A stretch of DNA of 64,000 nucleotides. Source: Liolophura sinensis. Its lineage: Eukaryota; Mollusca; Polyplacophora; Chitonida; Chitonidae. Below are positions 11,001-64,000 of this stretch, piece by piece. The translations under genes were made by a program, and so were the position numbers. How positions within the stretch are numbered: the first letter of the stretch is position 1; the number at the start of each line of letters is the position of its first letter. The notes below the pieces were generated by a model that saw nothing but the letters and a program-made list of their open reading frames with translations, was not told where the DNA came from and did no database searches. The stretch is from the NCBI RefSeq assembly GCF_032854445.1, contig NC_088302.1:1178001-1242000 (forward strand), read 5' to 3'.

Positions 11001-14000
11001 AGCTATGCAGATCCCAGACTAATCCATGACCAGTCACTCACGTACCTGATCAGGTTTATGGTGGAGGAAGCTAATCAGATCCCAGACTAATCCATGACCG
11101 GTCACTCACGTACCTGATCAGGTTTTTGGTGGAGGAAGCTATGCAGATCCCAGAGTAATCCATGACCGGTCACTCACGTACCTGATCAGGTTTATGGTGG
11201 AGGAAGCTATGCAGATCCCAGAGTAATCCATGACCGGTCACTCACGTACCTGATCAGGTTTATGGTGGAGGAAGCTAAGCAGATCCCAGAGTAATCCATG
11301 ACCAGTCACTCTCGTACCTGATCAGGTTTATGGTGGAGGAAGCTATGCAGATCCCAGACTAATCCATGACCGGTCACTCCCGTACCTGATCAGGTTTATG
11401 GTGGAGGAAGCTATGCAGATCCCAGACTAATCCATGACCGGTCACTCTCGTACCTGAACAGGTTTATGATGGAGGAAGCTATGCAGATCCCAGACTAATC
11501 CATGACCGGTCACTCACGTACCTGATCAGGTTTATGGTGGAGGAAGCTAAGCAGATCCCAGAGTAATCCATGACCGGTCACTCACGTACCTGATCAGGTT
11601 TATGGTGGAGGAAGCTAAGCAGATCCCAGAGTAATCCATAATGGGTCACTCACGTACCTGATCAGGTTTATGGTGGAGGAAGCTATGCAGATCCCAGAGT
11701 AATCCATGACCGGTCACTCCCGTACCTGATCAGGTTTATGGTGGAGGAAGCTATGCAGATCCCAGACTAATCCATGACCGGTCACTCACGTTCCTGATCA
11801 GATTTATGGTGGAGGAAGTGTTACCACTACTGAGATGTAGAACATTAATGTATCTGGGTGTACCGTAAAGGGGGAAACAGAATCAGTGCTTATTGGCTGA
11901 CTGGTGAGATAGGGTTTCCTGGGTTAAATCTTTGCAGCCTAGGTCACGCTTGAGTAAATGTTCTTAGACAAGGCATAGCCTGGACTTGTCTGTCTCTCAT
12001 GTCAGCCAATCAGAATCAATTCTGCGTCTCTGTAAGCATTACATTGAGTATGTATTGTTACCTACAGCTCTTTGCCGCCAAAATTCCCTCAGGATCAGCC
12101 GATGGTGGGAGTAGAACCAGGCGTCCACCACCCCTGGGTGGATAACCAGATGAGAGTGGCCCACTGCCCTGCCCTTCTCTCTGTGAGTCTGCACTTTATT
12201 TTGTCAATCTTTGTACACATGCCTCTTTAGATGAAGTCTAATGTTTTGATGTAAATGCTGCACACTTTTATTTCTCTAGAGAAGTATATTGGTAGAAGAT
12301 AAGTGAATTTGTTTGTGGCATCTCTAATTAATCTTTGTTCTCTTCTCGGGGATTCGATTTATCCCATGTGTCGTTCAGTTGTGCAAGTAATGCCTGATCC
12401 AGTCAAAACTTGACAACTTGGATTAGCTCAGAAGTACATATATACATGGATTAGCCCAGAAGTACATACATGTATATACATGGATTAGCCCAGAAGTACA
12501 TATATACATGGATTAGCCCAGAAGTACATATATGCAAGGATTAGCCCAGACGTACATATATACATGGATTTGCCCAGAAGTACATATATACATGGATTAG
12601 CCCAGAAGTACATATATGCAAGGATTAGCCCAGACGTACATATATACATGGATTTGCCCAGAAGTACATATATACATGGATTAGCCCAGACGTACATATA
12701 TACATGGATTAGCCCAGAAGTACATATATGCAAGGATTAGCCCAGAAGTACATATATACATGAATTAGCCCAGAAGTACATATATACATGGATTAGCCCA
12801 GAAGTACATATATACATGGATTAGCCCAGAAGTACATATATACATGGATTAGCCCAGAAGCACACAAATACATTTATATATATGTGTACATGTATATATA
12901 CAAACACACATTAAAAACGCAGAAGATAGGAAGTGGGTGAAAGTTTTATTTAAGCCTGGCCCAAATAACTTATTGAGACACCAATGAAATAAATAAAGAA
13001 ATAAAGAAATATTGCTTCATGTGTAATACTTGCACACTGTCACTGTGTGGGCTTGTGTTGTATGACACTGAGGCAAAAGACAATCATCATACAACTGTAG
13101 GCGGGAAGAATTCAAGAGTTTGGGGAGCTCTGAGTGTACTCTTTAAAATGATGGTTTGTGGCAATTGAGTGATTTTCTATTCCAGTTCTCCATGCACTCC
13201 AGTCTGGGATCAGCTGTACAGAGTATTGTGGATGAATTCAAGAGAAATCCTCCCCAAGTACTGCCACAACATCTGTAGTAAGTCACTGATGTTAGAGAAA
13301 TCCTCCCCAAGTACTGCCACAACATCTGTAGTAAGTCACTGATGTTAGAGAAATCCTCCCCAAGTACTGCCACAACATCTGTAGTAAGTCACTGATGTTA
13401 GAGAAACCTTAGATACATGTAATGATGAACCCTCTCTGGGTAACTGGCATGGTGTAAGCAATTGAGGCAGACCACGAGTGACAAAAATGAGGTCAGCCTT
13501 CTGTTAACTACAAGAATAACCCTTTATGGCTCTTATATCTTTATTCAATGTCACTGGCTGATAGGGTCAGTATCCTGTGATACCCACTGGCCCTCCTCTG
13601 TGTCAGGTGGTCCTTCAGTGTCCTGTGATATCCACTGGCCCTTCTCTGTGTCTGGTGGTCCTTCGGTATCCTGTGATATCCAGTGGCCCTCCTCCTCTGT
13701 GTCAGGTGGTCGTTCAGTATACTGTGATATCCACTGGCCCTCCTATGTGTCAGGTGGTCTTTCAATATCCTGTGATATCCAGTCGCCCTCCTCTGTGTCA
13801 GGTGGTCTTTCAGTATCCTGTGATATCCAGTTGCCCTCCTCTGTGTCAGGTGGTCTTTCAGTATTTTGTGATATCCACTGGCCCTCCTCCTCTGTGTCAG
13901 GTGGTCCTTCAGTGTCCTGTGATATCCACTGGCCCTTCTCTGTGTCAGGTGGTCCTTCAGTGTCCTGTGATATCCATTGGCCCTCCTCCTCTGTGTCAGG

Positions 14001-16913: not shown

Positions 16914-16944
<31 letters not shown>

Positions 16945-19900
16945 GATTTGTGTTTTACGCCGTACTCAAGAATATTTCACTTATACGACGGCGGCCAGCA
17001 TTATGGTGGGTGGAAACCGGTCACAGCCCGGGGGAAACCCACGACCATCCGCAGGTTGCTAGCAGACCTTCCCACTTACGGCCGGAGAGGAAGCCAGCAT
17101 GAGCTGGACTTGAACTCACAGCGACCGCATTGGTGAGAGGCTCCTGGGTCATTACGCTGCGCTAGCGCGCTAACCGACTGAGCCAGTGTTTGCAATTTAT
17201 AGGTTTGTAACTGCCATCGCCTGACTGGATACTTTCTTCGGTTTGATTCATGCATATAATTATAAATGCACGTGGGCTGGTCAGGAGACCTGTACTCGCT
17301 GTGAGTGACTTGACCCCATGTGGCGGGGATTAGTTACCAGGGTAATGGGCGGGGGGTTAATCACCCACTACTGTCATTTTGCCACTAACTCAGCCCGTGG
17401 GAAAGTTTACAACAGAAACTGAGGGGCGAAATGTACATCATTTACCATAACTGTCCAAATTTCAGCCAGAGCATTTTGAGCATGGCGTACTCCATCAATT
17501 TGCTGACAGACAGACCTCAAACAACACATAACATCCTTGGTGGAGATAATGCATTAATGATGTTAAACATTTTCCCCTGTTTCAATAAAAGATCAAATAT
17601 AAATATAAAGTTTAAAACATCTTCGTGATTCTGGCTGTAAAGTTAATGGACACGAGTAAGTTAACTGGTATCAGTTGTGTAATGAACAAGTACAGAAGCA
17701 CTCATGGGGTTCTAGTAAATGATAATTACCATTGAGGAAGGCTGGATAGTTTGGCTCCTCCAATCACACCTTCTCTTCTTTCTTTTGTCATATTTATTAA
17801 ACTGGGACATGCGTTTGATTCAGATGCCCCAAACCAGCACCCCAGTTTTCAGTGACAGTGTATGGGTGAGCCATTGATAGACAGTGTACAGAATTAAGAT
17901 ATGACACGTGTATATTGTTAGGGGTTGTTGTTGTTGTTGTTCCTTGTAAGCCAAAATCAAAATCCACCAATATTTGTTTGTAAATTTTCTAAATTTTCTT
18001 TTCCTTGCTCTTAAAACTTGTACCCTTAGCATGACAGAGTTGAATGAACTGATGCATGATGAGGGGAAGATGCTGGAGCTGCTGCAACAACAACCCGAGC
18101 TGGAGAAGATCTCAGAGGACAGAAGAGAACTCTCAAGAACGTGTGAAGAGCTAGCCAGTAAGATGCTATATGGTTTTTTGGATGGTCTAACTAACCTTAA
18201 ACATAAAGTCAGCCAATAAAGCTGAATCAGTTAATAAAGTATTATTCCAGAAATGTTCTAAAACTATTTTTAAAATTGTACATCGCCTTTCACTGACAAG
18301 TTACTGTAGTATCCTGCCCAACAAGTACTCATTGTGATACAGGCAGCCATTCTCAGTTCCCTGCTCATAAATGTGGTGTTCAGAGTGCATCAGTTTAACA
18401 CTTAACGTGGTTGCAAAATCCAATTTATTGCATCGATATCTGTCTATGCACTATAAGAAACCACACTGACTAGTCAAGAGCTAGTAGATTTTTTTGACGT
18501 GACTGTAAAATTATCATGTGACGCTTTCAGCACTAGTGATTGGCGAAGTTTATAAAGGCTTCTACAATATGGCTTCTCGGAGTGAATTGTCTGTCAGTGC
18601 CATATCCCCAGTACAGAACTTGCATCTTCTCAGTTTTTAAAACTTAATAGAATTTTTTAAATATTTTTCTGTGATAACTGAAATTATTTTTCTATGTATA
18701 TATACTGGCAGACTTTATATTAACTTGAATGGACAACATTTTATTCTCTGTGATAGTTCTTCTGACTTATCCACTTGCTTTTTTCTGATATTATTTCCAT
18801 ATTATTTACTTCACTGATAATTATTTGCTCATTGTGATGTTTGCTCTGTCTTTTTCAGAATCAAACTTATCCAGAAAACCTGAGGTGGAAAATCTGAAAC
18901 GATCCTTGATAGAGCAGGTGAGAGTTGTGTAAATAATGTGCATCATGAATAGTTGTGCCAGCTTGATCCATTTACCTGGTTGGTACCTGAAATGATCCTT
19001 GATAGAGCAGGTGAGAGTTGTGTAAATAATATGTGTCATGAATAGTTGTGCCAGCTTGATCCATTTACCTGGTTGGTACCTGAAACGATCCTTGATAGAG
19101 CAGGTGAGAGTTGTGTAAATAATATGTATCATGAATAGTTGTGCCAGCTTGATGCATTTACCTGGTTGGTACCTGAAACAATCCTAGATAGAGCTGGTGA
19201 GAGTTGTGTAAATAGTATGTGTCATGAATAGTTGTGCCAGCTTGATCCATTTACCTGGTTGGTACCTGAAACAATCCTAGATAGAGCTGGTGAGAGTTGT
19301 GTAAATAATGTGTGTCATGAATAGTTGTGCCAGCTTGATCCATTTACCTGGTTGGTACCTGAAACGATCCTTGATAGAGCAGGTGAGAGCTGTGTAAATA
19401 ATATGTGTCATGAATAGTTGTGCCAGCTTGATCTATTTACCTGGTTAGTACCTGAAACGATCCTAGATAGAGCAGGTGAGAGCTGTGTAAATAATGTGTG
19501 TCATGAATAGTTGTGCCAGCTTGATCTATTTACCTGGTTGGTACCTGAAACGATCCTTGATAGAGCAGGTGAGAGTTGTGTAAATAATATGTGTCATGAA
19601 TAGTTGTGCCAGCTTGATGCAATCACCTGGTTGGTACTTGAAATGATCCTAGATAGAGCAGGTGAGAGTTGTGTAAATAATGTGTGTCATGAATAGTTGT
19701 GCCAGCTTGATCCATTTACCTGGTTGGTACTTGAAATGATCCTTGATAGAGCAGGTGAGAGTTGTGTAAATAATATGTGTCATGAATAGTTGTGCCAGCT
19801 TGATCCATTTACCTGGTTGGTACTTGAAATGATCCTTGATAGAGCAGGTGAGAGTTGTGTAAATAATATGTGTCATGAATAGTTGTGCCAGCTTGATCCA

Positions 19901-22900
19901 ATTACCTGGTCGGTACCTGAAACGATCCTTGATAGAGCAGGTGAGAGTTGTGTAAATAATGTGTGTCATGAATAGTTGTGCCAGCTTGATCCAATCACCT
20001 GGTTGGTACCTGAAACGATCCTAGATAGAGCAGGTGGGAGCTGTGTAAATAATATGTGTCATGAATAGTTGTGCCAGCTTGATGCAATTACCTGGTTGGT
20101 ACCTGAAACAAGCCTTGATAGAGTAGGTGAGAGTTGTGTAAATAATATGTGTCATGAATAGTTGTGCCAGCTTGATCCAATTACCTGGTTGGTACCTGAA
20201 ATGATCCTTGATAGAGCAGGTGAGAGTTGTGTAAATAATGTGTGTCATGAATAGTTGTGCCAGCTTGATCCATTTACCTGGTTGGTACTTGAAATGATCC
20301 TTGATAGAGCAGGTGAGAGTTGTGTAAATAATATGTGTCATGAATAGTTGTGCCAGCTTGATCCATTTACCTGGTTGGTACCTGAAACGATCCTAGATAG
20401 AGCAGGTGAGAGCTGTGTAAATAATGTGTGTCATGAATAGTTGTGCCAGCTTGATCCATTTACCTGGTTGGTACCTGAAACGATCCTTGATAGAGCAGGT
20501 GAGAGTTGTGTAAATAATGTGTGTCATGAATAGTTGTGCCAGCTTCATCCATTTACCTGGTTGGTACCTGAAATGATCCTTGATAGAGCAGGTGAGAGTT
20601 GTGTAAATAATGTGTGTCATGAATAGTTGTGCCAGCTTGATCCATTTACCTGGTTGGTACCTGAAACAAGCCTTGATAGAGTAGGTGAGAGCTGTGTAAA
20701 TAATATGTGTCATGAATAGTTGTGCCAGCTTGATCCATTTACCTGGTTGGTACCTGAAATGATCCTTGATAGAGCAGGTGAGAGTTGTGTAAATAATGTG
20801 TGTCATGAATAGTTGTGCCAGCTTGATCCATTTACCTGGTTGGTACCTGAAACAAGCCTTGATAGAGTAGGTGAGAGTTGTGTAAATAATATGTGTCATG
20901 AATAGTTGTGCCAGCTTGATCCATTTACCTGGTTGGTACCTGAAATGATCCTTGATAGAGCAGGTGAGAGTTGTGTAAATAATATGTGTCATGAATAGTT
21001 GTGCCAGCTTGATGCAATTACCTGGTTGGTACCTGAAACGATCCTTGATAGAGCAGGTGAGAGTTGTGTAAATAATGTGTGTCATGAATAGTTGTGCCAG
21101 CTTGATCCATTTACCTGGTTGGTACCTGAAATGATCCTTGATAGAGCAGGTGAGAGTTGTGTAAATAATATGTGTCATGAATAGTTGTGCCAGCTTGATC
21201 CATTTACCTGGTTGGTACCTGAAATGATCCTTGATAGAGCAGGTGAGAGTTGTGTAAATAATGTGTGTCATGAATAGTTGTGCCAGCTTGATCCATTTAC
21301 CTGGTTGGTACCTGAAACAAGCCTTGATAGAGTAGGTGAGAGTTGTGTAAATAATATGTGTCATGAATAGTTGTGCCAGCTTGATCCATTTACCTGGTTG
21401 GTACCTGAAATGATCCTTGATAGAGCAGGTGAGAGTTGTGTAAATAATATGTGTCATGAATAGTTGTGCCAGCTTGATCCATTTACCTGGTTGGTACCTG
21501 AAACAATCCTAGATAGAGCAGGTGAGAGTTGTGTAAATAATATGTGTCATGAATAGTTGTGCCAGCTTGATGCAATTACCTGGTTGGTACCTGAAACGAT
21601 CCTTGATAGAGCAGGTGAGAGTTGTGTAAATAATGTGTGTCATGAATAGTTGTGCCAGCTTGATCCATTTACCTGGTTGGTACCTGAAACGATCCTTGAT
21701 AGAGCAGGTGAGAGTTGTGTAAATAATATGTGTCATGAATAGTTGTGCCACCTTGATCCAATCACCTGGTTGGTACCTGAAACGATCCTTGATAGAGCAG
21801 GTGAGAGTTGTGTAAATAATGTGTGTCATGAATAGTTGTGCCAGCTTGATCCAATTACCTGGTTGGTACCTGAAACAATCCTTGATAGAGCAGGTGAGAG
21901 TTGTGTAAATAATATGTGTCATGAATAGTTGTGCCAGCTTGATCCATTTACCTGGTTGGTACCTGAAACGATCCTAGATAGAGCAGGTGAGAGTTGTGTA
22001 AATAATATGTGTCATGAATAGTTGTGCCAGCTTGATCCATTTACCTGGTTGGTACCTGAAACGATCCTAGATAGAGCAGGTGAGAGTTGTGTAAATAATG
22101 TGTGTCATGAATAGTTGTGCCACCTTGATCCAATTACCTGGTTGGTACCTAAAACAATCCTTGATAGAGCAGGTGGGAGCTGTGTAAATAATATGTGTCA
22201 TGAATAGTTGTGCCAGCTTCATCCATTTACCTGGTCGATAGCTTAACAATGTATGCAATCAGATCACCGTAAAGGGCAAATGGTGTGGAAGGATTTAGAA
22301 ATTCAAGGAGAGTTAGAACTTTGCACAGTCTGTTACATTCTCATTACATTGTCAGTTAATGATGCGGCATTAAACAAATGGAAGCCTAAAACAGTGTTTT
22401 AAACTGAAGAGTCCTAATTTATTCACCGTGTTCTTTTTATGTTATTTGATAAAAGCATTTACTTGTTAACGTGCATTATACACATGTGGACATACATGTG
22501 CTCTTAAAATGTTTGAACACGCAAACATTTTGGACATATGTACACTTCAAATATTTGGACTCGCAAACATTTGGACATATATGTATACTTAAAATATTTG
22601 GACATACAAACATTTGGACATATATGTACACTTAAAATATTTGGACATACAAACATTTTGGACATACCAGTGAAAACCTTTGAGCAGATATGTGTGTTTA
22701 GAATATAAACATGTAGACATATATACGTATAGACGTACATGTAGAAATGTGTGGAGAGCATGGACGGCCCTGACCTGACCATTGATTGATTGTTTCCTGT
22801 GTGTAATTTAACAGTGGGACCGTATGAGTGAGATGCGGAGTCAGCTAGAGGATCAGGTGGCTAGACAGGCTTTGTTAGCAGAGCAGTTCCACCCCAGCAT

Positions 22901-25900
22901 CCTGCAGACCAATCTAAAGGTTGCCGCACTGGAAGCTGAAGAGGAGTCCGAGAGAATAGCAGAGGCCTTCCTAGACAGTAAGTCATTTGTCTGACACCTC
23001 AGGCTTTCCTAGACAGTGAGTCATTTGTCTGACACACCAGGCCTTTCTAGACAATGAGTCATTTGTCTGACACACCAGGCCTTCCTAGACAGTAAGTCAT
23101 TTGTCTGACACACCAGGCTTTCCTAGACAGTGAGTCATTTGTCTGACACACCAGGCCTTTCTAGACAGTAAGTCATTTGTCTGACACACCAGGCCTTCCT
23201 ACACAGTAAGTCATTTGTCTGATACATCAGGCTTTCCTAGACATTAAGTCATTTGTCTGACACACCAGGCCTTCCTAGACAGTAAGTCATTTGTCTGACA
23301 CACAAGTCATTTGTCTGACACACCAGGCCTTCCTACACAGTAAGTCATTTGTCTGACACACCAGGCCTTCCTAGACAGTAAGTCATTTGTCTGATACATC
23401 AGGCTCTCGTAGACAGTAAGTCATTTGTCTGACACACCAGGCCTTCCTAGACAGTAAGTCATTTGTCTGACACACCAGTCTTCCCTAGACAGTAAGTCAT
23501 TTGTCTGACACATCAGGGATTCAGATCAAAGCTTTAGCTAATAAGTTTAGCTATTCTTGGTAAATAGAGAAAATTTTATTTCATTAGCGAATAATGATAT
23601 TTTGCCAGAACCGCATGTATAGCCTTTGTAACCTACAAAGTGAGTGTGATTTGTGAGGGTGACTTGTGAACCTTGATAATGTAAACCTTGAAAAGTGTCA
23701 ACCTTGATAAACTTCGATAGCGTCAACCTTGATAGTGTGTGAACCTTGATAGTGTCAACCTTGACAGTGTAATCCTTGACAGTGTGAACCTTGATAGTGT
23801 CAACCTTGACATTCTGAACCTTGACGGTGTAAACCTTGACAGTGTCAACCTTAACAGTGTCAGCCTTGACAGTGTCAACCTTGCAAGGGTTTAGCCAGCC
23901 ATACGTCTCCCCGTCCGTGCGACGGGCAAACCTCGCGTGCGACAGTGAGACGGGTTGAGCGGATTTGAGACGGGAGCCAAATTATTTTCCAGCTAAATAG
24001 GTATATGTTGAGACGGTCTACAAATCAATAAAACATGAAATGTCCATACCGTCTTATCCTGTCTTTATTTCTTGTCAGGCGGCATTTTAAAAATCATTTA
24101 GCTGAACACTACGATAGTTTAAGAAGCCTACCGAGCCGAAATGTTAAAATCGACCCTTCGATCAACGTGACCTAGTTATCCAACCAGAGCCGGTATTAGC
24201 CGGACAAGGAGTTGTCTCCCTTTGCTGAAGTACGAAGAGCGGGGAAATTGTCTTAAAACTCCTTCCCTGGATAAAACATTATTTCCATAAACTTTTGGGA
24301 TATTAAAATGTATTTTAAATCTATCGAAAGATTTAATACTTTTGGAATTCCCATCGTACACTCAAACTCGATACACGCACGCGGTACGAAACATCAAACC
24401 ACGTGGAGTCGGTCTGTGTAGCCCACTTGTATTTAAGCGCTGAAATTGGAAGATGTCAAAACGTGGCTCTGAGAAATCAGGCAAGATAACGTCTTTCTTC
24501 AACAAAGCTTCAACTAGTGCTAGTGTACACTCAGACACTGGAGAGGATTCTGATTTGGAGCTTGATGTTGAACTCCAGGCACACGCTAGCGTTGACATGA
24601 AGAGTGATGGCTCCAGCAGACATGTTGGAAGCGGGCCGTCGAGCCAGTGTTGGGAACGGGCCAAAGCACCGAAAAAAAGGCGGACCGAAACCAAAAAGTT
24701 TTCTCCAGGCTGGACGAAGATGTTCCCGTGGCTAACTTACTGTCAGGCTGACAACACAATGAAATGTAAAGTGTGCAGTCAGAGTGGGCGACCCGGAGTT
24801 TGGACTGAGGGCACGAGAAATTTCAGGTCTGGTTTACTTTCAGTTTTGTTGACACTCGATTGATTGCTTGATACTGGTATTGTTATACAAAATCATCATC
24901 CACATTGTGCTATTAACATTGCAACTACTGTGACATAAATTTTCAACATGAATGTATTGTTGTCTAAAACAATGGCATTTTAAGATCAAAAATTGTATTT
25001 AAAGTACATTTTACAATTTGCTTTTAAATCGCTTTTAAACACCAACTAATAATTCCAGTTTGTCCATTTTTCAGGCTGAAATCAATTAAACAACATGCAG
25101 TCTCAGAAGCACATATGCTTTCACTGGCAGGAGCTGACAGCCACCAAAGGACACTTAATCAAGCTAAAGCACACAGAGACAATGCATTCAAGGTTGCACT
25201 TAAAACAGTTCTATGGTTAACTAATGAGGAAGTGGCTAATGTTAAATACCGAAGTTTGATTCATTTCCTTCAAAACCTTGGTGTTGAAGATGCAAAGACT
25301 TTGAAGAAATCTGGCAATGCCCAGTACACCAGTCCCAAAATCTTCAACCAACTGCTCGATGCTCTAAATGCAGTTTCCATTCAAGTGCTGAAAGCTGCTA
25401 TTAGTAATTCCCCTTTCGTGGGTATTGGGATCGATGAAAGTACGGACCTGTCGCAGGAAAAGCATATCGGAGTGGTTGTACGAAATGTTTCCGTAGAGGG
25501 CCAAGTGGTAACAACCTTCTTGAAACTGGAAGCCATTAAGGATGGAAAAGCCCAATCCCTCTTTGATGCCACTGCCAGCGTGTTGTTACAATTTGGTGTT
25601 CCATTCAGTAAAGTTGTTGGATTGAGCGCCGACGGTGTGAATGTGATGTCAAGCGAGCAGAATGGACACAACGGCCTCATGAAAGTCCAGAACCCTTACT
25701 TTCTCTATGTTTACTGTGTATCCCACAGATTGGCATTGTCTGTCAGTAACTGCCAACAACAGATACCAGCTCTGGATACACTTACTAAGATCATAGGGAG
25801 TGTATATAACTATGTCCAATACTCCAAGCTTGAGAGGTTCAAAGACATCTCCGCAATACTTGATATGGCCACTGTCAAATTCAAACGTCTTTTTGAGACC

Positions 25901-30008: not shown

Positions 30009-30335
30009 ACATTTGACAGTTGTGTGATGGTGTTATCAGACATCAGTACTGAAGAGTTGACAGTTGTGTGATGTGTTATCAGACATCAGTACCGAACGGT
30101 TGACAGTTGTGTGATGTGTTATCAGACATCAGTACCGAACAGTTGACAGTTGTGTGATGTGTTATCAGACATCAGTACCGAACAGTGGACAGTTGTGTGA
30201 TGTGTTATCAAACATCAGTACTGAAGAGTTGACAGTTGTGTGATGTGTTATCAGACATAAGTACTGAACAGTTCACAGTTGTGTGATGTGTTACCAGACA
30301 TCAGTACTGAACAGTTCACAGTTGTGTCATGATAT
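29990..30335 (+). repeat. 43-bp array starting at the VPS37A stop codon
   Basis: About eight copies of a 43-bp unit. The first copy is CTTCAGTACTGA of the coding end (TGA is the stop); later copies read CATCAGTACTGAACAGTTGA then CAGTTGTGTGATGTGTTATC. The array lies in the presumed 3' UTR. Confidence 0.88.
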
Positions 30336-30410
30336 CAGCGAATGGTTGTGGGTTTCCTCCAGGCTTTACAGGGTTTCCTCCCATCATAATATTTCCCACC
30401 ACAATGCATA
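30335..30410 (+). mobile_element. SINE fragment (first family)
   Basis: The GGTTGTGGGTTTCCTCCAGG block and the following CCCATCATAATA match the middle of the 31264-31532 SINE. Head and tail are missing. Confidence 0.5.
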
Positions 30411-32316: not shown

Positions 32317-32455
32317 ATATGATTGGTGTTTTACACCGTACTCAGGAATATTTCACTTATACGACGACGGCCAGCAATATTATGGAAGGAAACCCAGGAC
32401 AATCCGCAGGTTGCTGGCAGACCTTCCCACATACGACCGTAGAGGAAGCCGATAT
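32317..32455 (-). mobile_element. Truncated SINE (first family)
   Basis: The minus-strand copy covers the 3' end through the GGTTGCTGGCAGACCTTCCC block and lacks the tRNA head. It starts with GATTGGTGTTTTACACCGTA. Confidence 0.8.
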
Positions 32456-32667
32456 GGTATTCAGGTGTGAACACATTATTGTATATTGCTGTAGATGTAA
32501 CAGATGTGTAAGGCTTGTACAGGATGTTATTATTGGGTTGTGTGTATAAATTATTGCATGAACATGAGATTGACATACATGGTCCTACAGCAAACATTGT
32601 ACATACCATGCCCATATTGTGTTCATACCTGTGTATAATGTGGAATTGTTTTTGACAGGAACATGTA

Positions 32668-33241: not shown

Positions 33242-35895
33242 TAAAAAAGAATAACATTTTACCTAATGTACCAGTACTTAGTACAAGTAATGAGATAAAT
33301 TAAAACCATACATTGGTATTATAAACTAAATATCTATATCAGCATTAAGGGGAGATAATTATGCTTGTGACATAATACATTAAATGGACTTGACATGCTT
33401 GAGGATAAGTGAACTGAAAGCAAACAAAATGCAAAATCAAAACATTCATGCAGAAATAGAAAAAACTTGACTTGGAGAAACAAAATTTTAAGTAATGTTC
33501 TTTGTTCAGATTTAGACAGCACCATTGAAAACATACAGCTGCTGCAGAAAATCAAATGGTAGTACTGAGTTGCTACGTTACACCCATAGATAAGCCTTTG
33601 GCTGGCAATTAGGAGTGGTTGTTGTACATGTACTTACATGTAGAGCACCAGGAATCCATGGCCTCCCCAACCCTTCCTGTTGTCTCCTGTAAACACAGTT
33701 CTCCCGAAGTCAAGGTGGTGGAAGGACTAAAATCCCCCTGCCCCCCAACAGTCAGTACTGCGTAATACTTGATAAAGCTCATGTACCACATATGATCAGC
33801 TATGTAGTACTTTATTTATGGAGAGAGAGTTAGTGTATGTCGATAAGTAGCACTGATAGCCGAAATACACCAGATAATTGTCACATGTAGATGTAGACAT
33901 TATCGGCTCTACCCCTGGCAAGCCTGCCCAGACACATAGGTACCGTTACATCACACAAATGCTAAACCAAGAAAATGTGCTGATGTATTTCTAAAGCTAT
34001 GGTTTTATGAGACAAATGCAGTGCGCCAGATACAGATTACCTGTACATGTGGACGGCCAAGTTGTTCCAGACAAACACACACCACAGCTATTCCAGCATG
34101 GGAACCAAACTTTATACAGAGTACACTTTGGAAAGAACACCCCTAAATACACTTGACATTTTTGACAGATGAGTGCAGGGATACTAAACCAAATACCAGA
34201 AATTTGGTGCAAAAACTTCATTCAAATCTATAACATGATCACTTTAATCAATACACTAAAGCTAAACTCATACCATGGCAGTGATAAATAATGAGTGATC
34301 AATACATATAAGCTAGACAAATGCATGGTTTATATATCAACAATCAAAGATTGGTATCTACTGCTTCCTAGACAACACAAGGCAGTCTTGACTGCTGTCA
34401 ATTACACCGCACTGTCGCATCAACAACCCAATCAAAATACTGCTGTATTTTTCAGGCAGATCAAAAGCCATTTTGAGTGTACTGCTTTACTGGTGACAAA
34501 TCACCAACCAGCATTCTGAGACAATAGAAAATAAAATGTTTTGCAACAACCCAACATCTGGGCTGTTAAGCGTATAACCTGCAGACTTCAGTAAGAGACA
34601 GTAAAACACTTTCAAAATTATTTGACATTTTGCATCAATTGTCTGTCACAACTTTAGGACATAAAACTGGGAACCTGATTAAAATTGAAAAAAATAATTG
34701 GATGTAAAAAGGCACTATGATTCCCGTGGATTTCACAACAACTGTGCCGTCACGTAACCATGGTAACTAACAGCATGATAGAGTGATTCTGGGGAAGACG
34801 CCAAATTCACCAGAACACAACAGTAGCCTTCCAAAGAACCAATTGTATCTACATCCTCCGGAACTGTTGACATGACAAATATACACAACGTTTTCACCAA
34901 AGTCCATGCTAGAATGAGATGCAGGTCCTCTCATCCACCTTTTGTCATGTCCCTGGACGTAAGTTTCAGTTTGGACAACTTTAAATTTTTCTTCAAAATT
35001 ACTTTCTTTTCACCTTTAACATTTAAATCAATCAATATGCACTGGCATAAATGCAATGTTGTTACCCAGTGCCTGCCTGACTGACATTACTATGAAGTAG
35101 AGGCATGTACAAGTAACTTTTAGTAACAAATGAAATGCCCGTTGCTAACATCAGCATCCTTAAGCATCTGACAAGTACAACTTGGTGTTTAACAGCCACT
35201 TGCAAATCTTGTATTCAAACTGGTATGTTACAAAAATGAGTTCAAACCAACAATATACAGCATCAACATGTAACATTCTGAAAACAGTTCTCCGAATTCC
35301 AAAAACGAGTAAATTTTTTTTTCCTTATTAAAATATGTCTGCCATGAATATTTTTTGTGGTATAGTGTGTACATCTCCTGTACCATGTCCCAACAGCTCA
35401 ATTCACGTACAAGTACCTGGAAATTCTCCATGACAATATTCTGCTTTTCTTCTTCAAACGCTAAAATGTGTACTTTACGCTTCTTTTAAAGGCATTTAGA
35501 AGTTGAGTTGGATAACATAACAGATACATGGATCACAACTGTTGTTCAGTGAATGACGTTGCAGAACAGGTAATACTGCTTGATAACGGCATTACTACCT
35601 ATACTGAAACGTTGCTCAATGAATAAATAGAAGCTGTGATCCATATATTTGCTATGTTGTGTACTTTACACTTTTGACACTAACTCACAAGTTTTCAACT
35701 ATCATCCACAATTTTGAATTTGTATGTGAAAACGTTCAAAATAGTCTCAAATGAAGATCACATCTTTCTGCCATGACGTCTTGTCATCTGCTGAGATAAT
35801 TGTAGAGAGTTGCTTAGCCTGATGTCTTCCTGTATTTACTGAGATAATCACAGCTTAGCCTGATGTCTTTCTGTATCTGCTGAGATCATCATAGC
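33242..35895 (-). other. ILK: Presumed ILK 3' UTR
   Basis: AT-rich, repeat-poor and without coding-like frames over 60-75 codons. It is consistent with a long 3' UTR, but the boundary is not proven. It contains an imperfect 100-bp-scale inverted repeat at about 35510-35660 and the stop-codon repeat at 35815-35905. Confidence 0.4.
35510..35660. repeat. Imperfect inverted repeat (hairpin) in the presumed ILK 3' UTR
   Basis: AACATAACAGATACATGGAT near 35513 pairs with ATCCATATATTTGCTATGTT near 35640. Inner segments around GAATGACGTT and AACGTTGCTCAATGAAT also pair. It may be a MITE remnant. Confidence 0.55.
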
Positions 35896-35910
35896 TTAGC
35901 CTGATGTCTT
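35770..35910 (-). repeat. 40-41-bp repeat spanning the ILK stop codon
   Basis: Plus-strand TAGCCTGATGTCTT occurs at 35815, 35855 and 35896, with a more degenerate fourth unit before them. On the minus strand the first copy is the coding end AAGACATCAGGCTAAGC; the others follow in the 3' UTR, separated by ATGATYTCAGCAGATACAG-like sequence. Confidence 0.8.
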
Positions 35911-36048
35911 CATCTTCTCCAGTATTGGGATGATCATGTCAAAGCGTGGCCGTTTCCCCGGTTCCACATTCATGCAGATCTTCAGGAGGCGCGACATGTG
36001 AGAGGAGATCCCTGGAGGTACAGTCAAGCGCAAGCCTTCCAGAGCCAC
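35896..36048 (-). CDS. ILK: ILK coding exon 12 and stop
   Basis: The acceptor on the minus strand is GGTTACAG. The exon encodes [20 protein letters not shown], then [20 protein letters not shown] and [10 protein letters not shown], then TAA (35898-35896). It aligns to the human C-terminus almost throughout. Both edges of this exon are duplicated in flanking repeats. Confidence 0.94.
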
Positions 36049-45000: not shown

Positions 45001-48000
45001 TGAGAGAATATAGCCACCACCCAGTGTGCTGCTATGATGTAGTCAGAGGACTGTGCAGTCCATACAGTATGGATCTCAGCTTAGGAAGAGATATTGAGAC
45101 TCTAAAGAGACCAACAGGAACCTGGATAATAAACATGTGTTTATACTTCCCAAACACCACACCAGCTTCCTACATTCCTAGAGAGAAAGTTAATATCAGG
45201 AAAGGGTGAACCCTGCTCTGAAATTAGAACTGCGGTATAAAAAAAGTTATTAGTATGACAGGGCATTTACCATGTCAACCAGCTAATGCACAATTTAATG
45301 TATCAACCAGCTAATGCACAACATGATATATCAACCAGCCACTGCATAGCTTGATGTATCAACCAGCTAATGCATAACTTGATGTATCAACCAGTTAATG
45401 CATAACTTGATGTATCAACCAGTTAATGCATAACTTGATGTATCAACCAGTTAATGCATAACTTGTTGTATCAACCAGCTAATGCATAAACTTGATGTAT
45501 CAACCAGTTAATGCATAACTTGTTGTATCAACCAGCTAATGCATAAACTTGATGTATCAACCAGTTAATGCACAACTTGATGTATCAACCAGCTAATGCA
45601 TAGCTTGATGCATCAACCAGATAATGCATAACTTGATGTATCAACCAGTTAATGCATAACTTGTTGTATCAACCAGCTAATGCATAACTTGATGTATCAA
45701 CCGGGTAATGCATAACTTGATGTATCAACCAGTTAATGCACAACTTGATGTATCCACCAGTTAATGCATAACTTGATGTATCAACCAGTTAATGCACAAC
45801 TTGATGTATCCACCAGATAATGCATAACTTGATGTATCAACCAGGTAATGCACAGCTTGATGTATCAACCAGTTAATGCATAACTTGATGTATCAACCAG
45901 TTAATGTACAACTTGATGTATCAACTAGCTAATGCATAACTTGATGTATCAACCAGTTAATGCATAACTTGATGTATCCACCAGATAATGCATAACTTGA
46001 TGTATCAACCAACTAGATGCAGCAACTGTGTTAGTAACAAAAGTACCCAAAGCACACGCATTATTGCCGGGTTTTCTTCACAAGCAAGTTACCGCATTGA
46101 TTGGAGCATCTTTGGCCGTGTACTTAGGGTCATCAATGTTAATTTTAGCCAGGTCTTCGTCAATCTAGGAGGAGAGAAATGGTTACCCACAAAGGGTGTT
46201 ACTGGGGCTCTGAAACTCAAACTCTTGGCAACAGGGACTGGACTTGTTTACTTACCGCAGAGAATTTACAATTCAGTTTTCCTAAGTATTTCTCAAAATC
46301 CAGCTCTATATTACTAACTGCTATAGTTACATTAATAAGACGTCAAATGACAGCAGTGTACATTTATATCCATACATTTACTGAAGTTACAGAGTACCTG
46401 ACATCCTTTAAATAAATAAGAAATATATACAATTAGTTCTTCAATAACTGAAAATTAAAGTTTCTACAACCATCTATACCGGAAAACTGTTTTGAACACA
46501 AAATAATAACTTGACTTTAACATGAGAAAACGTTCCCTATATTCTACCACTGACCACTCGTGAACATCGAAAGTCATTATCAGTCACCAGTAATTTGTCA
46601 GGTAACTAATCAGAAGGTAATCTGAATGACGGACTTCAATACTACTGATTTATACAGACAAAAGCACACTTAAAGCAAAATAAGGAAAAAAATTACCGAT
46701 GACTTCCCAACAAAGGCCAAAGACACAAAAGCTTGGACACACCGGAGTTTCACCTATTCCTTATTACAACCACACCAAAATAAAGATTGACAGAAATATC
46801 ATTATCTTCTAAGCACCAAAAAATAAGTTTTCAACCAAAATTACCCAAAATTATTTGGAACAGAAAGCTGGAGTAAATGGTAGGTTTCTCATTAACACAC
46901 ATGAAAGTCAAATGTCCATTTCATTTGTCAGGTACACATATTTAATTAAGCACTCGGAATAATCCCACATGGATCAGAACAAGGTAACTTACCATGACAT
47001 GTTTACTTGTGAGGTGGAAATTCGGAATCATAGGTTCCAGGGAGTGTAGGAACTCCATCCCCCGGGCGATGTCCAATGCAAACCTTAAGGCCTGGTTCTG
47101 GTCCACCACAATACCTGGGCAACAAGCAGGTCACAATAAGTACAGTCTGTATATGTACATCTTAATACACGTTCCCCAGTGGTGGTAAACCCAACCACAA
47201 CACCTGGGCAATGAGTAGGTCACAATAAGTAGTCTGTATATGTACATCTTAATACACGTTCCCCAGTGGTGGTAAACCCAACCACAACACCTGGGCAATG
47301 AGCAGGTCACAATAAGTAGTCTGTATATGTACATCTTAATACACGTTCCCCAGTGGTGGTAAACCCAACCACAACACCTGGGCAATGAGCAGGTCACAAT
47401 AAGTACAGTCTGTATATGTACATCTTAATACACGTTCCCCAGTGGTGGTAAACCCAACCACAACACCTGGGCAATGAGTAGGTCACAATAAGTAGTCTGT
47501 ATATGTACATCTTAATACACGTTCCCCAGTGGTGGTAAACCCAACCACAACACCTGGGCAATGAGCAGGTCACAATAAGTAGTCTGTATATGTACATCTT
47601 AATACACGTTCCCCAGTGGTGGTAAACCCAACCACAACACCTGGGCAATAAGCAGGTCACAATAAGTAGTCTGTATATGTACATCTTAATACACGTTCCC
47701 CAGTGGTGGTAAACCCAACCACAACACCTGGGCAATAAGCAGGTCACAATAAGTAGTCTGTATATGTACATCTTAATACACGTTCCCCAGTGGTGGTAAA
47801 CCCAACCACAATACCTGGGCAATGAGCAGGTCACAATAAGTAGTCTGTATATGTACATCTTAACACACGTTCCCCAGTGGTGGTAAACCCAACCACAACA
47901 CCTGGGCAATGAGCAGGTCACAATAAGTACAGTCTGTATATGTACATCTTAATACACATTCCCCAGTGGTGGTAAACCCAACCACAACACCTGGGCAATG

Positions 48001-51000
48001 AGCAGGTCACAATAAGTAGTCTGTATATGTACATCTTAACACACGTTCCCCAGTGGTGGTAAACCCAACCACAACACCTGGGCAATGAGCAGGTCACAAT
48101 AAGTAGTCTGTATATGTACATCTTAACACACGTTCCCCAGTGGTGGTAAACCCAACCACAACACCTGGGCAATGAGCAGGTCACAATAAGTAGTCTGTAT
48201 ATGTACATCTTAATACACGTTCCCCAGTGGTGGTAAACCCAACCACAACACCTGGGCAATGAGCAGGTCACAATAAGTAGTCTGTATATGTACATCTTAA
48301 TACACGTTCCCCAGTGGTGGTAAACCCAACCACAACACCTGGCCAACAAGCAGGTCACAGTAAGTACAGTCTGTACATGTACTTCGTAATACACATTCCC
48401 CAGGGGTGTTAGATTTGCAATGTAGGCAGGGAACTGAAATTGGGAAAGTCTACATGGCACACAGACCCAATGTCAATATACTATCACAGGTCCATGTCCA
48501 TTGTATAGAGATATTCCCATCCAAGACTTACCTGTCTCTCCATGAAGGACATTGAAGAGTGATCCAAACGGCATGAACTGAGAGAGGATCACCAGGTTAG
48601 GGGGCTGGTTAGCACATGCCAGTACCGGCAGGATGTTAGGATGGTTGAAGATTCTGTAACAGAAATCATGGAATATGTGATCTGAATGGCATGAACTGAG
48701 AGAGGATCACCAGGTGAGGGGGCTGGTTAGCACATGCCAGTACAGGCAGGATGTTAGGATGGTTGAAGATTCTGTAACAGAAATCATGGAATATGTGATC
48801 TGAATGGCATGAACTGAGAGAGGATCACCAGGTGAGGAGGCTGGTTAGCACATGCCAGTACCGGCAGGATGTTAGGATGGGTGAAGATTCTATAACCTAA
48901 AACATGGAATATGTGATCTGAATGGCATGAACCGAGTGAGTATCACCAGGTTATGGGGCTGGTTGAAGATTCTGTAACACAAAATATATGGAATATATAC
49001 AGCCTTGCTGGACTGACATGATAAGGTACAAAGAAGCATGTAAGTATGTGTCTACAATCAGGATCTATAAGTAAGGGTTCTTCCATGAATGAAACTTTAC
49101 ATCTTCAATGAAAAAATAAGGAGAGACAGGTACAGATGGGCTCACCTGAGACGCGGGAACTCTTCCTGGAAGTCCCTGGAGGTACGGATTGTGCATTCAC
49201 GCAGACTGAGTATTTTAGCCACAATGTCATTGCCCTGCCAGGTAGCTCGCCACACCTGCATCATCAGACAGGAGAGTGCTTACATCACAGGTATGGTTTA
49301 CTAGTAAAATTAATCCGTTCAACCATGTTTTCTCATGCTTTTTTCTCATGTTTTTCTCATTGTTATCTCTGATATTTCTGTTCTAAACATGAATCCAAAA
49401 AAAGTAATTTTATGTTAGGAAAAGATTTTTTCACTGTCATTAGGACTAATAAATGTAACCCTAAAAAAAAGATGCTTAAAAAACTTTGAAAGACAGGAAA
49501 TATGCAGAAGAATTTAAATGTACAAAATGCTGTGGTAGAATAGTCCCCTAAACTGTGAGAGACTTACATCACCAGAGTGTGTGCTGGCAATGCGAGATAT
49601 AAGGTTCAACTGTTGAATGTCAATGCCTGCATGGCGAGACAGAGTAGCGTCCCCTGAAATACAAGACATAAATCTTAATCCAACCGCAACAGATAAACGA
49701 TCAGTACATATTTTACTAACACATCAAATCACTTAACAACCTTAAAGTTAAAAACTTATTACTCCTGATCTTTCATATCCTATGATATTTTGCTAAGACT
49801 AAATTCTTTAAACAAAACTTGATTCTTCAAAAAACCCTTGAGAACAGTCTTTTAACAGTTAGATACCAGTGTGCAAAAATGCTTCAAACAATCCCAACTC
49901 TAAAAGCAATCATGTTATTAACATTCACTTACAAGGTATGTACTTTCCAAAAGGGTGAAATGTTACTTTTTACTTGACTAAGCAGAAATGTTAATCATAT
50001 TTTATAGAAGTGTAGCATGATGGGATCACTTACGACTCCTGGTCTTGTAGCCCAGCCAGCTTCTGTCTTTGTAAGGGATTTTGTTCAAATCTTGACCTAA
50101 TGCTGCAGCTCTCTCTGAACAAAAGAGCAAATGATAAAAAGGGCAGTAGCCAATAGATCCCCACCCTTGCATTATTAGGAAATAAATTCCCATTTTCAGT
50201 ACATGTATGTACATGTACTAACCTCTGAATCGCAGCCAGGGCATCCAAGATGGTTGACAGAGGAACAGATAGAAGGTCACACAAATGGAAAGCTATTGCA
50301 TGTCCCTCATCAGTTTCGTGGAGGGGAATAATGTTTTCATAATTCATAATTGTATCATAATTTACAGTATACTCTATGGTGGAATTTGTTCAGGTTATAT
50401 GTCATTTGTGGGAGTCCACCAGGATACCTCACGAACAGAAATGCACAACAACAACTAATGTTTACAGTACTCATCAACCTTAACACATCACACAAACACA
50501 ACCATAATTACTTAACGTTTAAATACACACAACAACAAGAAACTTACCTTTTAACATTTTCGACAGATACGGCTTGGCTTTATCCATGGGAGATTCATTA
50601 TATTTGTTGGCAATGGCAACGATGGCTCCACTGTTAACAAGATCCTACAAGAGAAGAAAGATGCAAATACAAACATGTTCTGTAATGACATGCCGCTTCA
50701 TACACAACTGATTTGTCTAACTCAACTAAATATACTTATTTGTGATGCTTTACATAGTTCTCCTGACAACTCCACTTGTCTGTGAGCTATCTGGTGGTGA
50801 TGCTTTACATGCTTCTGAGAACTCCGCTTGCCAGTGAGCTATCTGGTACATAGTTCTGAGAACTCCACTTGTCACTGAGCTGTCTGGTAAACAGTTCTCC
50901 TGAGAACTCCACTTGTCACTGAGCTATCTGGTACACAGTTCTCCTGAGAACTCCACTTGTCACTGAGCTATCTGGTACATAGTTCTCCTGAGAACTCCAC

Positions 51001-58262: not shown

Positions 58263-59355
58263 GTTTGTCAGGTATTAAAATTGATACGATCCCTAGCATC
58301 TGGACTTCATAATGATAAGGCAATGTGCTAAGAATTGATACTGTCCTGTTAGATACCTATGTACTTGGTTTAAATGTCAACTTATTTCCAATGTTACATT
58401 GTATAATTCTAAATAAGTAGATTGATTGGTTCATTCATGGGTATTAAACACAGTGCTTCATATAATATATATAAATATATATTTTTCATTCTTATAACAG
58501 CAGTCCAGTTTGTGGATAGAGGAAATTGGAGTCCCGGAAATCTAAAGTTCTGAACAAGTAAAGATGCATGTATACTTGAATGTGAGGGGAGATAGTAGGG
58601 GAGGAATTGTTCAGGGGGAAATTTCCAGGTAGAGCAGGATTGATAGTCCCTTGGAGACAATACCCCTACCCCTCTTTCTATAGTTGAATACCTTGTTTTT
58701 GGAGAAGCGGCACTACTAAACACCATAGTCTTAAATGGTGATTAGGACTATGGATTACTTGACAAGAATTGTGGCATCCAGGATACTCACAGATGCAGCA
58801 GCTGAATATATGAGCATAGAGAATGATAAAATTGTATTAAGTTTTGTGTAATAAAATCCAGACCTCACATTCAAACAACATTTGCACATCAATATGGCTT
58901 TGATATTGCCATTCTGATAGAAAGTAATAATCACTCATTCAAAGAATATGTAACATCAATTGGTAGAATAATTAAAATATAAGATTGATGCGTCTAATTT
59001 AATGTAAGATGATTTGTGAATGTGACATAGGGTGACCTCCATGGATGAGTGGTTAGTGTGCTAGTGCAGAGATTCAAGAGCCTCCCACAAATGTGAACAC
59101 TGAGTTCAAATCCATCTCATGCTGGCTTCCTTTTCAGTCATGCCTGTGAAGGATAGCAAGCAACCGACAGATGGTTGGGAGTTTCCCGTGGGCTGTGCTT
59201 GGTTTACTCTAACCATAAAGCCCTCTGTTGTCGTTTAAGTGAAATATTCTTGAGTAGGGCATAAACCACCAGTCAAATAACTCAATAAATTGTCCGCTTA
59301 GGTAATATTGGCAAATATATTTGTATGTATTGCAGTCCATCCTGTGACAGAGATC
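58263..59355 (+). other. Presumed RRP8 first intron
   Basis: Unique AT-rich sequence with a diverged SINE at 59032-59290. The coding exon acceptor (GTATTGCAG) follows at 59334. Confidence 0.4.
59032..59290 (+). mobile_element. Diverged SINE (first family) before RRP8 coding exon 1
   Basis: Head GACCTCCATGGATGAGTGGT, body CTCATGCTGGCTTCC and GTTTCCCGTGGGCTGTGCTT, tail AAATATTCTTGAGTAGGGC then CAATAAAT. An old copy ending about 45 bp before the exon acceptor. Confidence 0.75.
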
Positions 59356-59424
59356 ATGATGTTTGAACAGGAGGACTGGGCGTCTAACAAAACAGCTGAT
59401 GATTTATCCAGAAAGTTATTCTCT
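59356..59424 (+). CDS. RRP8: RRP8 coding exon 1
   Basis: Acceptor GTATTGCAG is at 59334, so the exon starts with 21 bases of 5' UTR. ATGATG gives [20 protein letters not shown] then LFS, ending in phase 0 at GTAAGT. Either ATG may be used; the second gives a closer match to the human start. Confidence 0.82.
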
Positions 59425-62400: not shown

Positions 62401-63433
62401 CAATTAAATTAGCTGAGGTCCTGTGCTGGAATACTCTCCAACTCTCACTGGTTTATCTGCAAGTCGTTGACACACCACTTGAGATATCATGGTTTCCTCA
62501 GAGCTCTGCTGGGTTTGTCAGCTACCTGGTGAGATATCATGGTTTTCTCAGGTCTCTGCTGGGTTTGTCAGTTACCTGGTGAGAAATCATGGTTTCCTCA
62601 GGGCTCTACTGGGTTTGTGAGCTACCTGATGAGATGTCATGGTTTCCTCTGGGCTCTGTTGGGTTTGTCCGCTACCGGATGAGATGTCATGGTTTCCTCT
62701 GGGCTCTGCTAGGTTTGTCCGCTACCTGATGAGATGCCATGGTTTCCTCTGGGCTCTGTTGGGTTTGTCAGCTACCTGGTGAGATGTCATGGTTTCCTCA
62801 GGTCTCTATTATGTTTGTCAGTTACCTGGTGAGATGTCATGGTTTCCTTTGGGCTCTGTTGGGTTTGTCCGCTACCTGGTGGGATATCATGGTTTCCCCA
62901 AGGCTCTGCTAAGTTTGTCAGAGCAAACTATTCATTAGTTTTTATCACCTGTAGATATTTACTTCTGGACATTCCCAGCTTCCCTTGGAGAAGCAGAGTG
63001 TGGATTTCTGGTTTTATCACACTTATGTAGGTTTTCTTCAAACTCTTGCTCTTCCATGTTCCCGTGTTCCCCTGGAGAAGCAGAGTATGGATTTCTGGTT
63101 TTGTCACACACCTGTAGGTATTTATCACAAACTTACACTTCCATGTTCCCAGCTTCCCCTGGAGAAGCAGAGTGTGGATTTCTGGTTTTATCACACACAT
63201 GTAGGTATTTATCACAAACTTACACTTCCATGTTACCAGGTTCCCCTGGAGAAGCAGAGTGTGGATTTCTGGTTTTATCACACACATGTAGGTATTTATC
63301 ACAGACTTACACTTCCATGTTCCCAGGTTCCCCTCAAGAAGCGGAGTGTAGATATCTGTGTGTTTTGCCTTTCTCTGATGGGAACCAACCTGGTGGATTA
63401 CCTGACAGAGGCCAATCGCATCCTGAAGACAGG
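59356..63433 (+). CDS. RRP8: RRP8, nucleolar rRNA-processing methyltransferase (partial, 3' end outside window)
   Basis: RRP8 (nucleomethylin) is a nucleolar SAM-dependent methyltransferase; yeast Rrp8 makes a 25S rRNA m1A, and in animals it also acts in rDNA silencing. Visible exons 59356-59424, 60534-61618, 61872-62001 and 63327-63433 join in one frame of 463 codons. The start [10 protein letters not shown] fits human MFEEPEW. Residues about 24-310 are a Lys/Arg-rich, low-complexity nucleolar-type tail. From about 312 comes the conserved block ([34 protein letters not shown]). SAM-binding motif I is [12 protein letters not shown], followed by [16 protein letters not shown] and [20 protein letters not shown]. 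Roughly the last 80-90 residues are missing. The N-terminal tail is longer than in human, whose whole protein is 456 aa. The last visible exon is flanked on both sides by arrays that copy its splice sites. Confidence 0.93.
59425..60533 (+). other. RRP8 intron, with one SINE-like copy
   Basis: Unique sequence apart from a tRNA-derived SINE at 60240-60450. No array is seen here. Confidence 0.45.
60240..60450 (+). mobile_element. tRNA-derived SINE related to the second family
   Basis: Head with GTGGCCTAATGATTAGAACG and CAAACCCAGGTCGGGTCATA, then CTGCTGCCTCACTTGGCA and GCATAAAACACCATCAGATA. It resembles 9072-9430 in the GGGTC-type B-box region and body layout but is more diverged. Confidence 0.6.
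60534..61618 (+). CDS. RRP8: RRP8 coding exon 2 (basic tail and start of conserved domain)
   Basis: Acceptor TTCAAACAG is at 60533; the exon leaves in phase 2 at GTGAGT. It is 361 codons long, dominated by K/R/E ([27 protein letters not shown]), then the conserved [20 protein letters not shown] and [18 protein letters not shown] short motif is repeated inside the tail: [10 protein letters not shown] and [10 protein letters not shown]. The ATG at 60486 lies upstream of the acceptor and is not the start. Confidence 0.92.
61872..62001 (+). CDS. RRP8: RRP8 coding exon 3 (SAM-binding motif)
   Basis: Acceptor TTCCTGCAG, donor GTATTT. The exon encodes [20 protein letters not shown], then [20 protein letters not shown] and MAK. 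Human has [20 protein letters not shown]. Ends in phase 0. Confidence 0.95.
62002..62454 (+). other. RRP8 intron 3, 5' part
   Basis: Begins with a threefold CACATCGCACATTTA short repeat (62009-62045), otherwise unique. A block at about 62190-62270 (GAAACCAGAATGCCTGGAGA) looks like an interspersed-repeat fragment but could not be assigned. Confidence 0.4.
62455..62935 (+). repeat. 50-60-bp minisatellite, RRP8 intron 3
   Basis: About nine copies of a unit containing CTACCTGGTGAGATATCATG, then GTTTCCTCAGGGCTCTGCTG and GGTTTGTCAG. Each unit has a donor-like CTGGTGAGAT, but it does not match a visible exon end. Confidence 0.85.
62970..63330 (+). repeat. RRP8: 87-bp array: five tandem acceptor plus exon-start copies of RRP8 exon 4
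   Basis: Exon-like starts lie exactly 87 bp apart at 62979, 63066, 63153, 63240 and 63327; the last is the true exon. Each has a pyrimidine-rich CCATGTTCCCAG-type acceptor followed by bases for [10 protein letters not shown] (true exon [10 protein letters not shown]). Copies at 62979, 63153 and 63240 keep the AG; the 63066 copy has CCCGTG and has lost it. The region from 62979 into the real exon is open in the RRP8 frame without a stop, 29 codons per unit. Confidence 0.93.
63327..63433 (+). CDS. RRP8: RRP8 coding exon 4
   Basis: Acceptor CATGTTCCCAG; the exon enters in phase 0. It encodes [20 protein letters not shown], then [15 protein letters not shown], ending in phase 2 at GTGAGT. Human has [20 protein letters not shown] and DFLEEANRVLKPGG. 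Confidence 0.94.
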
Positions 63434-64000
63434 GTGAGTTGTCCAACACATTGTAACCCATCCTTACACACCTGACAGAGGCTAACCACATCCTGAAGAT
63501 AGGGTGAGTTGTCTGACACATCCTTACATACCTGACAGAGGCAAACTGCATCCTGAAGACTGGGTGAGTTGTCTGACACATCCTTACATACCTGACAGGA
63601 GCTATCCACATCCTGAAGACAGGGTGAGTTGTCCAACACATTGTAACCCATCCTTACACTCCTGACAGAGGCAAACCACAGCCTGAAGACTGGGTGAGTT
63701 GTCTGACACATCCTTACACACCTGACAGAGGCTAACCACATCCTGTAGACTGGGTGAGTTGTCTGACACATCCTTACACTCCTGACAGAAGCAAACCACA
63801 GCCTGAAGACTGGGTGAGTTGTCTGACACATCCTTACATACCTGACAGAGACTAACCACATCCTGAAGACTGGGTGAGTTGTCTGACACATTGTAACCCA
63901 TCCTCACATATCTGATAGAGGCAAACTGCATCCTGTAGACTGGGTGAGTTGTCTGACACATCCTTACATACCTGACAGAGACTAACCACATCCTGAAGAC
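63395..64000 (+). repeat. 57-69-bp array, about nine copies carrying the exon 4 donor of RRP8
   Basis: The unit reads CCTGACAGAGGCYAACCACA, then TCCTGAAGACWGG|GTGAGTTGTCTGACACATCC, with the bar at the exon edge in the first copy (which ends CAATCGCATCCTGAAGACAGG). Longer units add ACATTGTAACCC. The array continues past the window edge, so copy number is a minimum and the next exon is not visible. Confidence 0.92.

Follow-up and report, generated by a model that had tools for sequence, protein, structure and literature searches.

Why do minisatellites in a chiton genome lie across the edges of coding sequence, so that copies of a splice site or stop codon stand in a row beside the one in use, and is there more of this than chance would bring? 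The question is raised by 64,000 nucleotides of Liolophura sinensis DNA (the window), placed on scaffold C8, positions 1,178,001-1,242,000, with three genes, VPS37A, ILK and RRP8. A preliminary description, made from the letters alone, had noted about ten such arrays and had supposed a genome-wide habit due to some process such as transcription- or splicing-linked breakage and slippage at exon edges. The published L. sinensis assembly is PacBio HiFi-based and, in the available part of its report, comprises 609.5 Mb in 632 scaffolds (PMC11068029); the species name for the published chiton genome has been corrected to L. sinensis (PMC12441733).

The gene models on which the edges depend agree with NCBI predictions. 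Those for ILK and VPS37A show 100% identity to the NCBI predicted L. sinensis proteins, and the partial RRP8 model, whose gene exceeds the window, shows 100% identity over 99% of the model. VPS37A has 11 coding exons, ILK has 12 and a probable cassette exon, and four RRP8 exons are inside the window, with GT at 26/26 donors and AG at 25/25 acceptors. Pfam matching identifies VPS37A by Mod(r) and also confirms ILK, whose identity is further backed by solved structures. An Rfam scan of the window gave zero matches at gathering thresholds.

Tandem Repeats Finder calls, with units of at least 10 bp and after merging, amount to 27 arrays in the window and cover 20,535 of its 64,000 bp (32%). Twenty-four are inside the three gene spans; 14 of these are clear of coding edges and 10 overlap one, at four donors, four acceptors and two stop codons. 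The ten are identical to those in the preliminary description, and their program-called units agree with the range of 38-118 bp it had given.

On the forward strand, VPS37A coding exon 4 (13186..13277) ends at a donor, 13277/13278, that belongs to the first copy of an array at 13241..13406, where a 53-bp unit stands three times in a row and runs on for another 7 bp, the copies being 100% identical and 37 coding bases lying inside the array. The exon 8 donor array (18894..22235) is far longer, with about 36 copies of a 93-bp unit; the exon ends at 18917 and GT is kept in 35/35 decoys. At exon 9, which ends at 22977, the donor array (22963..23517) has a 38-bp unit and GT in 11/14 decoys. In the last exon a 43-bp unit is repeated over 29999..30331, the functional TGA, ending at 30008, being in the first copy and TGA being present in 4/7 of the others. 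ILK is on the reverse strand. Its last exon has a stop-codon array at 35812..35913, with 2.4 copies of a 41-bp unit and the functional TAA ending at 35896. Three of its acceptors are arrayed: that of exon 12 (array 36024..36471, unit of about 75 bp, AG in 5/5 decoys), with the exon start at 36048 in the last copy in the gene direction; that of exon 9 (47105..48408, about 15 copies of a unit of about 87 bp, exon start 47114, AG in 14/14 decoys); and that of exon 8 (48559..48964, 118-bp unit with 95 coding bases inside, exon start 48653, AG in 2/2 decoys). RRP8 exon 4, on the forward strand, is arrayed at both ends. Its acceptor array (62972..63358) has an 87-bp unit, with the exon start at 63327 and AG in 3/4 decoys, and its donor array (63399..64000), which exceeds the window, has a 60-bp unit and a longer variant, with the exon end at 63433 and GT in 8/8 decoys.

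The functional copy had been described as always the terminal copy of the array, and in 10/10 window edge arrays it is indeed the exon-side copy that gives the NCBI protein. This is close to a necessity, because use of an inner copy would add repeat units to the protein. Exon-proximal choice matches the NCBI proteins, themselves predictions, at 100% in the three window genes, and the predicted proteins of arrayed genes have no repeat-derived residues.

An outside sample from the same genome bears on whether the habit reaches beyond the window. It consists of gene families picked regardless of repeats: CCT chaperonins, kinesin motors and proteasome subunits. Of 79 planned regions 48 were used, the first 40 by contig order and the last 8 by exon-match number, independent of repeats, and these became 44 segments of 265,990 bp (266 kb). 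The sample exons are partial, being domain exons alone, and the functional copy was judged by family alignment and splice signals. There are 152 of them: 129 from family matches, minus one decoy copy in the L027 array, and 24 through a second profile pass. Six CCT decoy matches within the L017 array were also excluded from the exons. Edge cases were called by script and then each by eye. One L015 array, whose exon match extended into the intron, was not counted, and two L015 exon ends were placed by eye; also left out were near-edge arrays in L014 (twice) and L010, 3-38 bp short of the exon match, and one in L021 touching it.

In this sample Tandem Repeats Finder gives 84 arrays with 34,993 of the 265,990 bp (13%). 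Ten of the 84 are edge arrays, which corresponds to 10/304 known exon edges (3.3%), and they are spread over 9/44 segments. Seven are at donors (L015, L017, L021, L024, L026, L027 and L031) and three at acceptors (L013, L021 and L054), the L021 kinesin exon being arrayed at both ends, as is RRP8 exon 4. Window and sample together thus provide 20 edge arrays, of which 11 involve a donor, 7 an acceptor and 2 a stop codon; the sample could not reveal arrays of the latter kind, because it is only for domain exons that edges are known there. The available repeat table of the published genome has 0.08% as 'other (simple repeat, microsatellite, RNA)' and 14.04% as 'unclassified' (PMC11068029), to be set beside the 13% of tandem arrays in the sample, and minisatellites may be counted within that 'unclassified' share.

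The arrays are not one family. Independent origin had been proposed from their differing sequences and unit lengths, and 0/190 pairs among the 20 edge arrays (10 in the window and 10 outside it) match at E<1e-4. When the edge arrays, at most 400 bases of each, were compared with other sampled loci, the sole matches were those of L021_4594 in L056, read as a paralogous kinesin exon. As the units hold coding bases of their own gene, and no pair matches, each array likely arose in place. Introners and other intron-generating transposons put repeated splice signals in many genes, as the chiton arrays do. Introners, however, are one family copied across loci, whereas every chiton array consists of sequence from the gene in which it sits and, within the sampled DNA, no one unit recurs at many loci (0/190 pairs).

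How many edge arrays should chance provide? When one seed unit per array is dropped at random in the collapsed genes of the window, 1.3-2.0 edge arrays are expected against the 10 observed, and under all six settings 0/200,000 simulations reach 10. As the window was chosen after the fact, this figure overstates the case, and the outside sample gives the fairer comparison. There the same kind of null expects 3.5-4.6 edge arrays with a 6 bp minimum on each side, and 2.7-3.4 with a 10 bp minimum, against 10. Eight settings, in which seeds were pooled or kept within their segment and GC was weighted or not, give P 0.0002-0.013. Placement of intervals that spares exons expects 4.5 in the sample, with at least 10 in 4/400 runs, and 1.6 in the window, with 10 reached in 0/400 runs. 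With the exons of the second profile pass still left out, the excess had been weaker, at 7/84 against 2.95 expected (2.2-3.3), P 0.026 (0.006-0.047 over minimum overlaps). For sample arrays with units of at least 20 bp and a length of at least 150 bp, a filter chosen post hoc, it is 10/47 against 3.1-3.6 expected.

The permutation check that the preliminary description had itself put forward, with whole arrays repositioned freely, turns out the other way. Covered edges are then fewer than expected, 10 against 35.6 in the sample and 10 against 14.0 in the window; for arrays covering an edge the expectations are 21.8 in the sample and 7.6 in the window, again with 10 observed in each. Free placement overshoots the covered edges because real arrays spare exon bodies. 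As it permits arrays to swallow exons it was set aside as a working null, and reliance is placed on the seed and exon-sparing nulls. The two sorts of null reconcile if arrays may lean on exons yet cannot swallow them. The supposed habit is supported as reaching beyond the window, in that edge arrays make up 10/84 of those in a sample chosen by family, 2.2-3.8 fold more than the exon-sparing nulls provide; the free-placement check proposed for it lends no support, as more covered edges are then expected than are seen.

These figures leave some room for an account of pure tolerance, in which minisatellites are so abundant that some cross exon edges harmlessly and edges are not favoured. The array load is heavy (13% of the sample, 32% of the window), free placement expects more covered edges than are observed, and the fair-sample excess of merely 2.2-3.8 fold shrinks under GC weighting and within-segment placement, with P rising to 0.013. 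Composition is pertinent here: units of non-edge arrays have a GC content of 0.419, against 0.378 for the surrounding non-coding DNA (P 0.000, 1000 draws) and 0.468 for exons, and the array preference for GC-richer DNA explains part of the edge excess. The excess nevertheless persists in all eight seed-null settings and in the exon-sparing interval null, and we consider pure tolerance unlikely, though it is the strongest of the alternatives.

The seeding of arrays at splice sites by breakage or slippage linked to splicing or transcription, as first proposed for this locus, is a good deal more doubtful. In its favour splice sites account for 18/20 edge arrays (11 donors and 7 acceptors), and in non-edge units AGGT is weakly commoner, 32% against 24% (P 0.037, the sole one below 0.05 of six words tried), as would suit a motif-linked origin. 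In the same units donor-like sites are not significantly in excess (P 0.23), and acceptor-like sites are fewer than in random stretches. This comparison took in 94 'other' units, scored if at least 15 bp long (the fractions fit 87), and 3/94, two in L021 and one in L026, proved to be edge arrays. Splice motifs as seeds are thus unsupported by the non-edge units, barring the weak AGGT excess. Against the proposal also are the modest size of the excess over exon-sparing nulls and the stop codons, which are coding edges without a splice site: both of those in the window, in VPS37A and ILK, bear arrays (2/10 of the window edge arrays). With stop codons also arrayed and no significant donor-like excess, it is the coding boundary that seems to matter more than the splice site.

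Could the decoys be a selected device, for instance one that holds or delays the spliceosome or makes alternative protein segments? The canonical dinucleotide is kept in 80/84 window splice decoys (GT in 56/59 at donors, AG in 24/25 at acceptors), and in 3/18 splice arrays, all at acceptors, splicing to the nearest decoy would extend the protein in frame, with no stop, by 9, 13 or 29 residues. In the remaining 15/18 it would give a frameshift or a stop, from which faithful choice of the exon-side site is to be expected; arrays at stop codons could not serve in this way; and the decoy splice cores of the window edge arrays are conserved no better than the rest of the unit, so that the decoys drift. 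A selected role is accordingly very improbable. The proteasome segment L031 merits separate mention. Its exon 1504-1633, with an array at 1607-2066, has GTTCGT as the exon-side donor, assigned from the family match, whereas some decoys are GTACGT or GTATGT and so nearer the usual donor consensus, making it a good test case for splice-site choice by position.

Assemblies are known to go wrong at tandem repeats. An artefact is nevertheless scarcely credible, as the same structure is present in 9/44 other segments, copies diverge by a mean of 1.5-9.8% from consensus in 9/10 window edge arrays, and the HiFi reads, in the available account of the assembly, average 8.3 kb at 14X (PMC11068029), well above the 3.3 kb of the longest edge array.

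Beyond the observed anatomy of the arrays, their mutual independence, their frequency inside and outside the window and their excess over exon-sparing nulls, a mechanism can be suggested. These are minisatellites that probably arose when neighbouring sequence was duplicated in tandem by chance, splicing playing no special part in it, and that have probably been kept by a combination of free growth on the non-coding side and a pinned coding end. The duplications would arise anywhere, and where one falls on an exon edge each unit would hold the gene's own edge. They may start at short direct repeats, for which there is one clean case, of 7 bp, at VPS37A exon 4; the leftover lengths of young arrays, taken as a sign of short seeding repeats, are mixed. 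An array over a coding edge would be harmless while its exon-side copy remains the one used, and the spliceosome presumably picks that exon-proximal site by exon definition. Coding selection on the exon-side copy would in turn block loss of the array from that end, and an excess at edges could result. What keeps arrays at edges is thus likely twofold: expansion into non-coding DNA does no harm, and selection on the coding bases fixes the opposite end.

If ends are pinned, edge arrays might be expected to be the longer ones. In the sample they are, with a median of 640 bp where the other arrays have 156 bp (P 0.004). The difference fades, however, once arrays shorter than 150 bp are set aside (P 0.40), and the window does not show it, the medians there being 427 bp for edge arrays and 466 bp for the others. 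The sample lengths fit pinning, though not robustly, and greater copy number at edges fails the length filter as a proof of it. A more tentative extension, to which we give somewhat less than even weight, is that chiton coding edges act genome-wide as one-sided anchors for minisatellites, several percent of all exon edges bearing near-perfect copies, dozens of them at most, of whichever splice site or stop codon is in use, in arrays pinned by coding selection at one end and free to grow at the other. Were this so, the genome would offer a ready-made experiment in how splice sites are chosen, and a supply of sequence from which introns might be gained or their boundaries moved.

The preliminary description knew of no earlier account of such a habit, but the structure has been met before. 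In lancelets, tandem units over exon-intron boundaries, termed 'mirages', are described for Adh3, the globins BflGb6 and BflGb9, troponin C and PGBD5 in the available parts of two reports (PMC3087553, PMC3902484). They are at donors or acceptors, many of their decoys keep AG or GT, splicing is reported to be undisturbed, RT-PCR and two haplotypes are reported, and the globin authors tie them to intron gain. The chiton arrays share the boundary-spanning units, with exon and intron bases both included, in 8/10 window edge arrays and in 10/84 sample arrays, the 2 other window arrays spanning a stop codon; they share the involvement of both sorts of edge (11 donors and 7 acceptors) and the retention of AG or GT in many, not all, decoys (80/84 in the window). 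They differ in being from another phylum, in numbering 20 cases, with their frequency expressed per exon edge and compared with chance expectation, in including stop-codon arrays and in reaching about 36 copies; for the chiton there are one haplotype and predicted proteins where the lancelet reports have RT-PCR and two haplotypes.

The AGGT model of intron gain by tandem duplication (PMC3443670, PMC4974935) likewise has local duplication carrying splice signals. In that model, as set out in the available text (PMC3443670), an exonic duplication yields a new intron, whereas the chiton arrays sit in an intron or a 3' region. A narrow search of open-licence literature found no account of such arrays in molluscs or chitons, nor, at the level of titles and abstract openings, a frequency given for them. 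The kind is already known from lancelets, and what is new is a mollusc case and a measured frequency. With about 3% of sampled exon edges (10/304) arrayed, a lancelet curiosity becomes countable, and countable edge arrays allow a numerical test of whether repeats feed intron gain. At VPS37A exon 8, about 36 near-identical donors in a row, of which the first alone fits the predicted protein, provide a natural test of spliceosome choice among equals.

The window has other repeats and mobile-element remains that merit record. A 15-bp repeat of 2.7 copies at 62004-62043 starts at the third intron base past RRP8 exon 3, which ends at 62001, and is perhaps a young array next to an edge. Upstream of VPS37A two inverted 53-bp arrays, 2305-4492 and 5186-7126, have arms that are 85-90% complementary, and matching peptides can be read (by eye) at about 1867-2013 and 7712-7864, one on each strand; the whole resembles a fold-back element whose arms are minisatellites. 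VPS37A intron 9 has pieces of a hAT-like transposase at 24444-27753, the Dimer_Tnp_hAT match being just below cut-off and that to DUF4371 above its own. They are between two arrays of one repeat, 23665-23883 and 28021-29443, that are 81% alike, as if the element had landed inside one array.

In ILK, the 72 bp at 46093-46164 on the reverse strand look like an exon and repeat the first part of the exon at 42119-42218. Its 24 amino acids added to the 450 of ILK make 474, the length of several isoform X1 proteins in other molluscs, and so it is probably a conserved cassette exon. Near the ILK 3' end an element of about 500 bp is present in two copies, at about 36463-36961 and 39390-39880, and its ends, by eye, look like inverted repeats.
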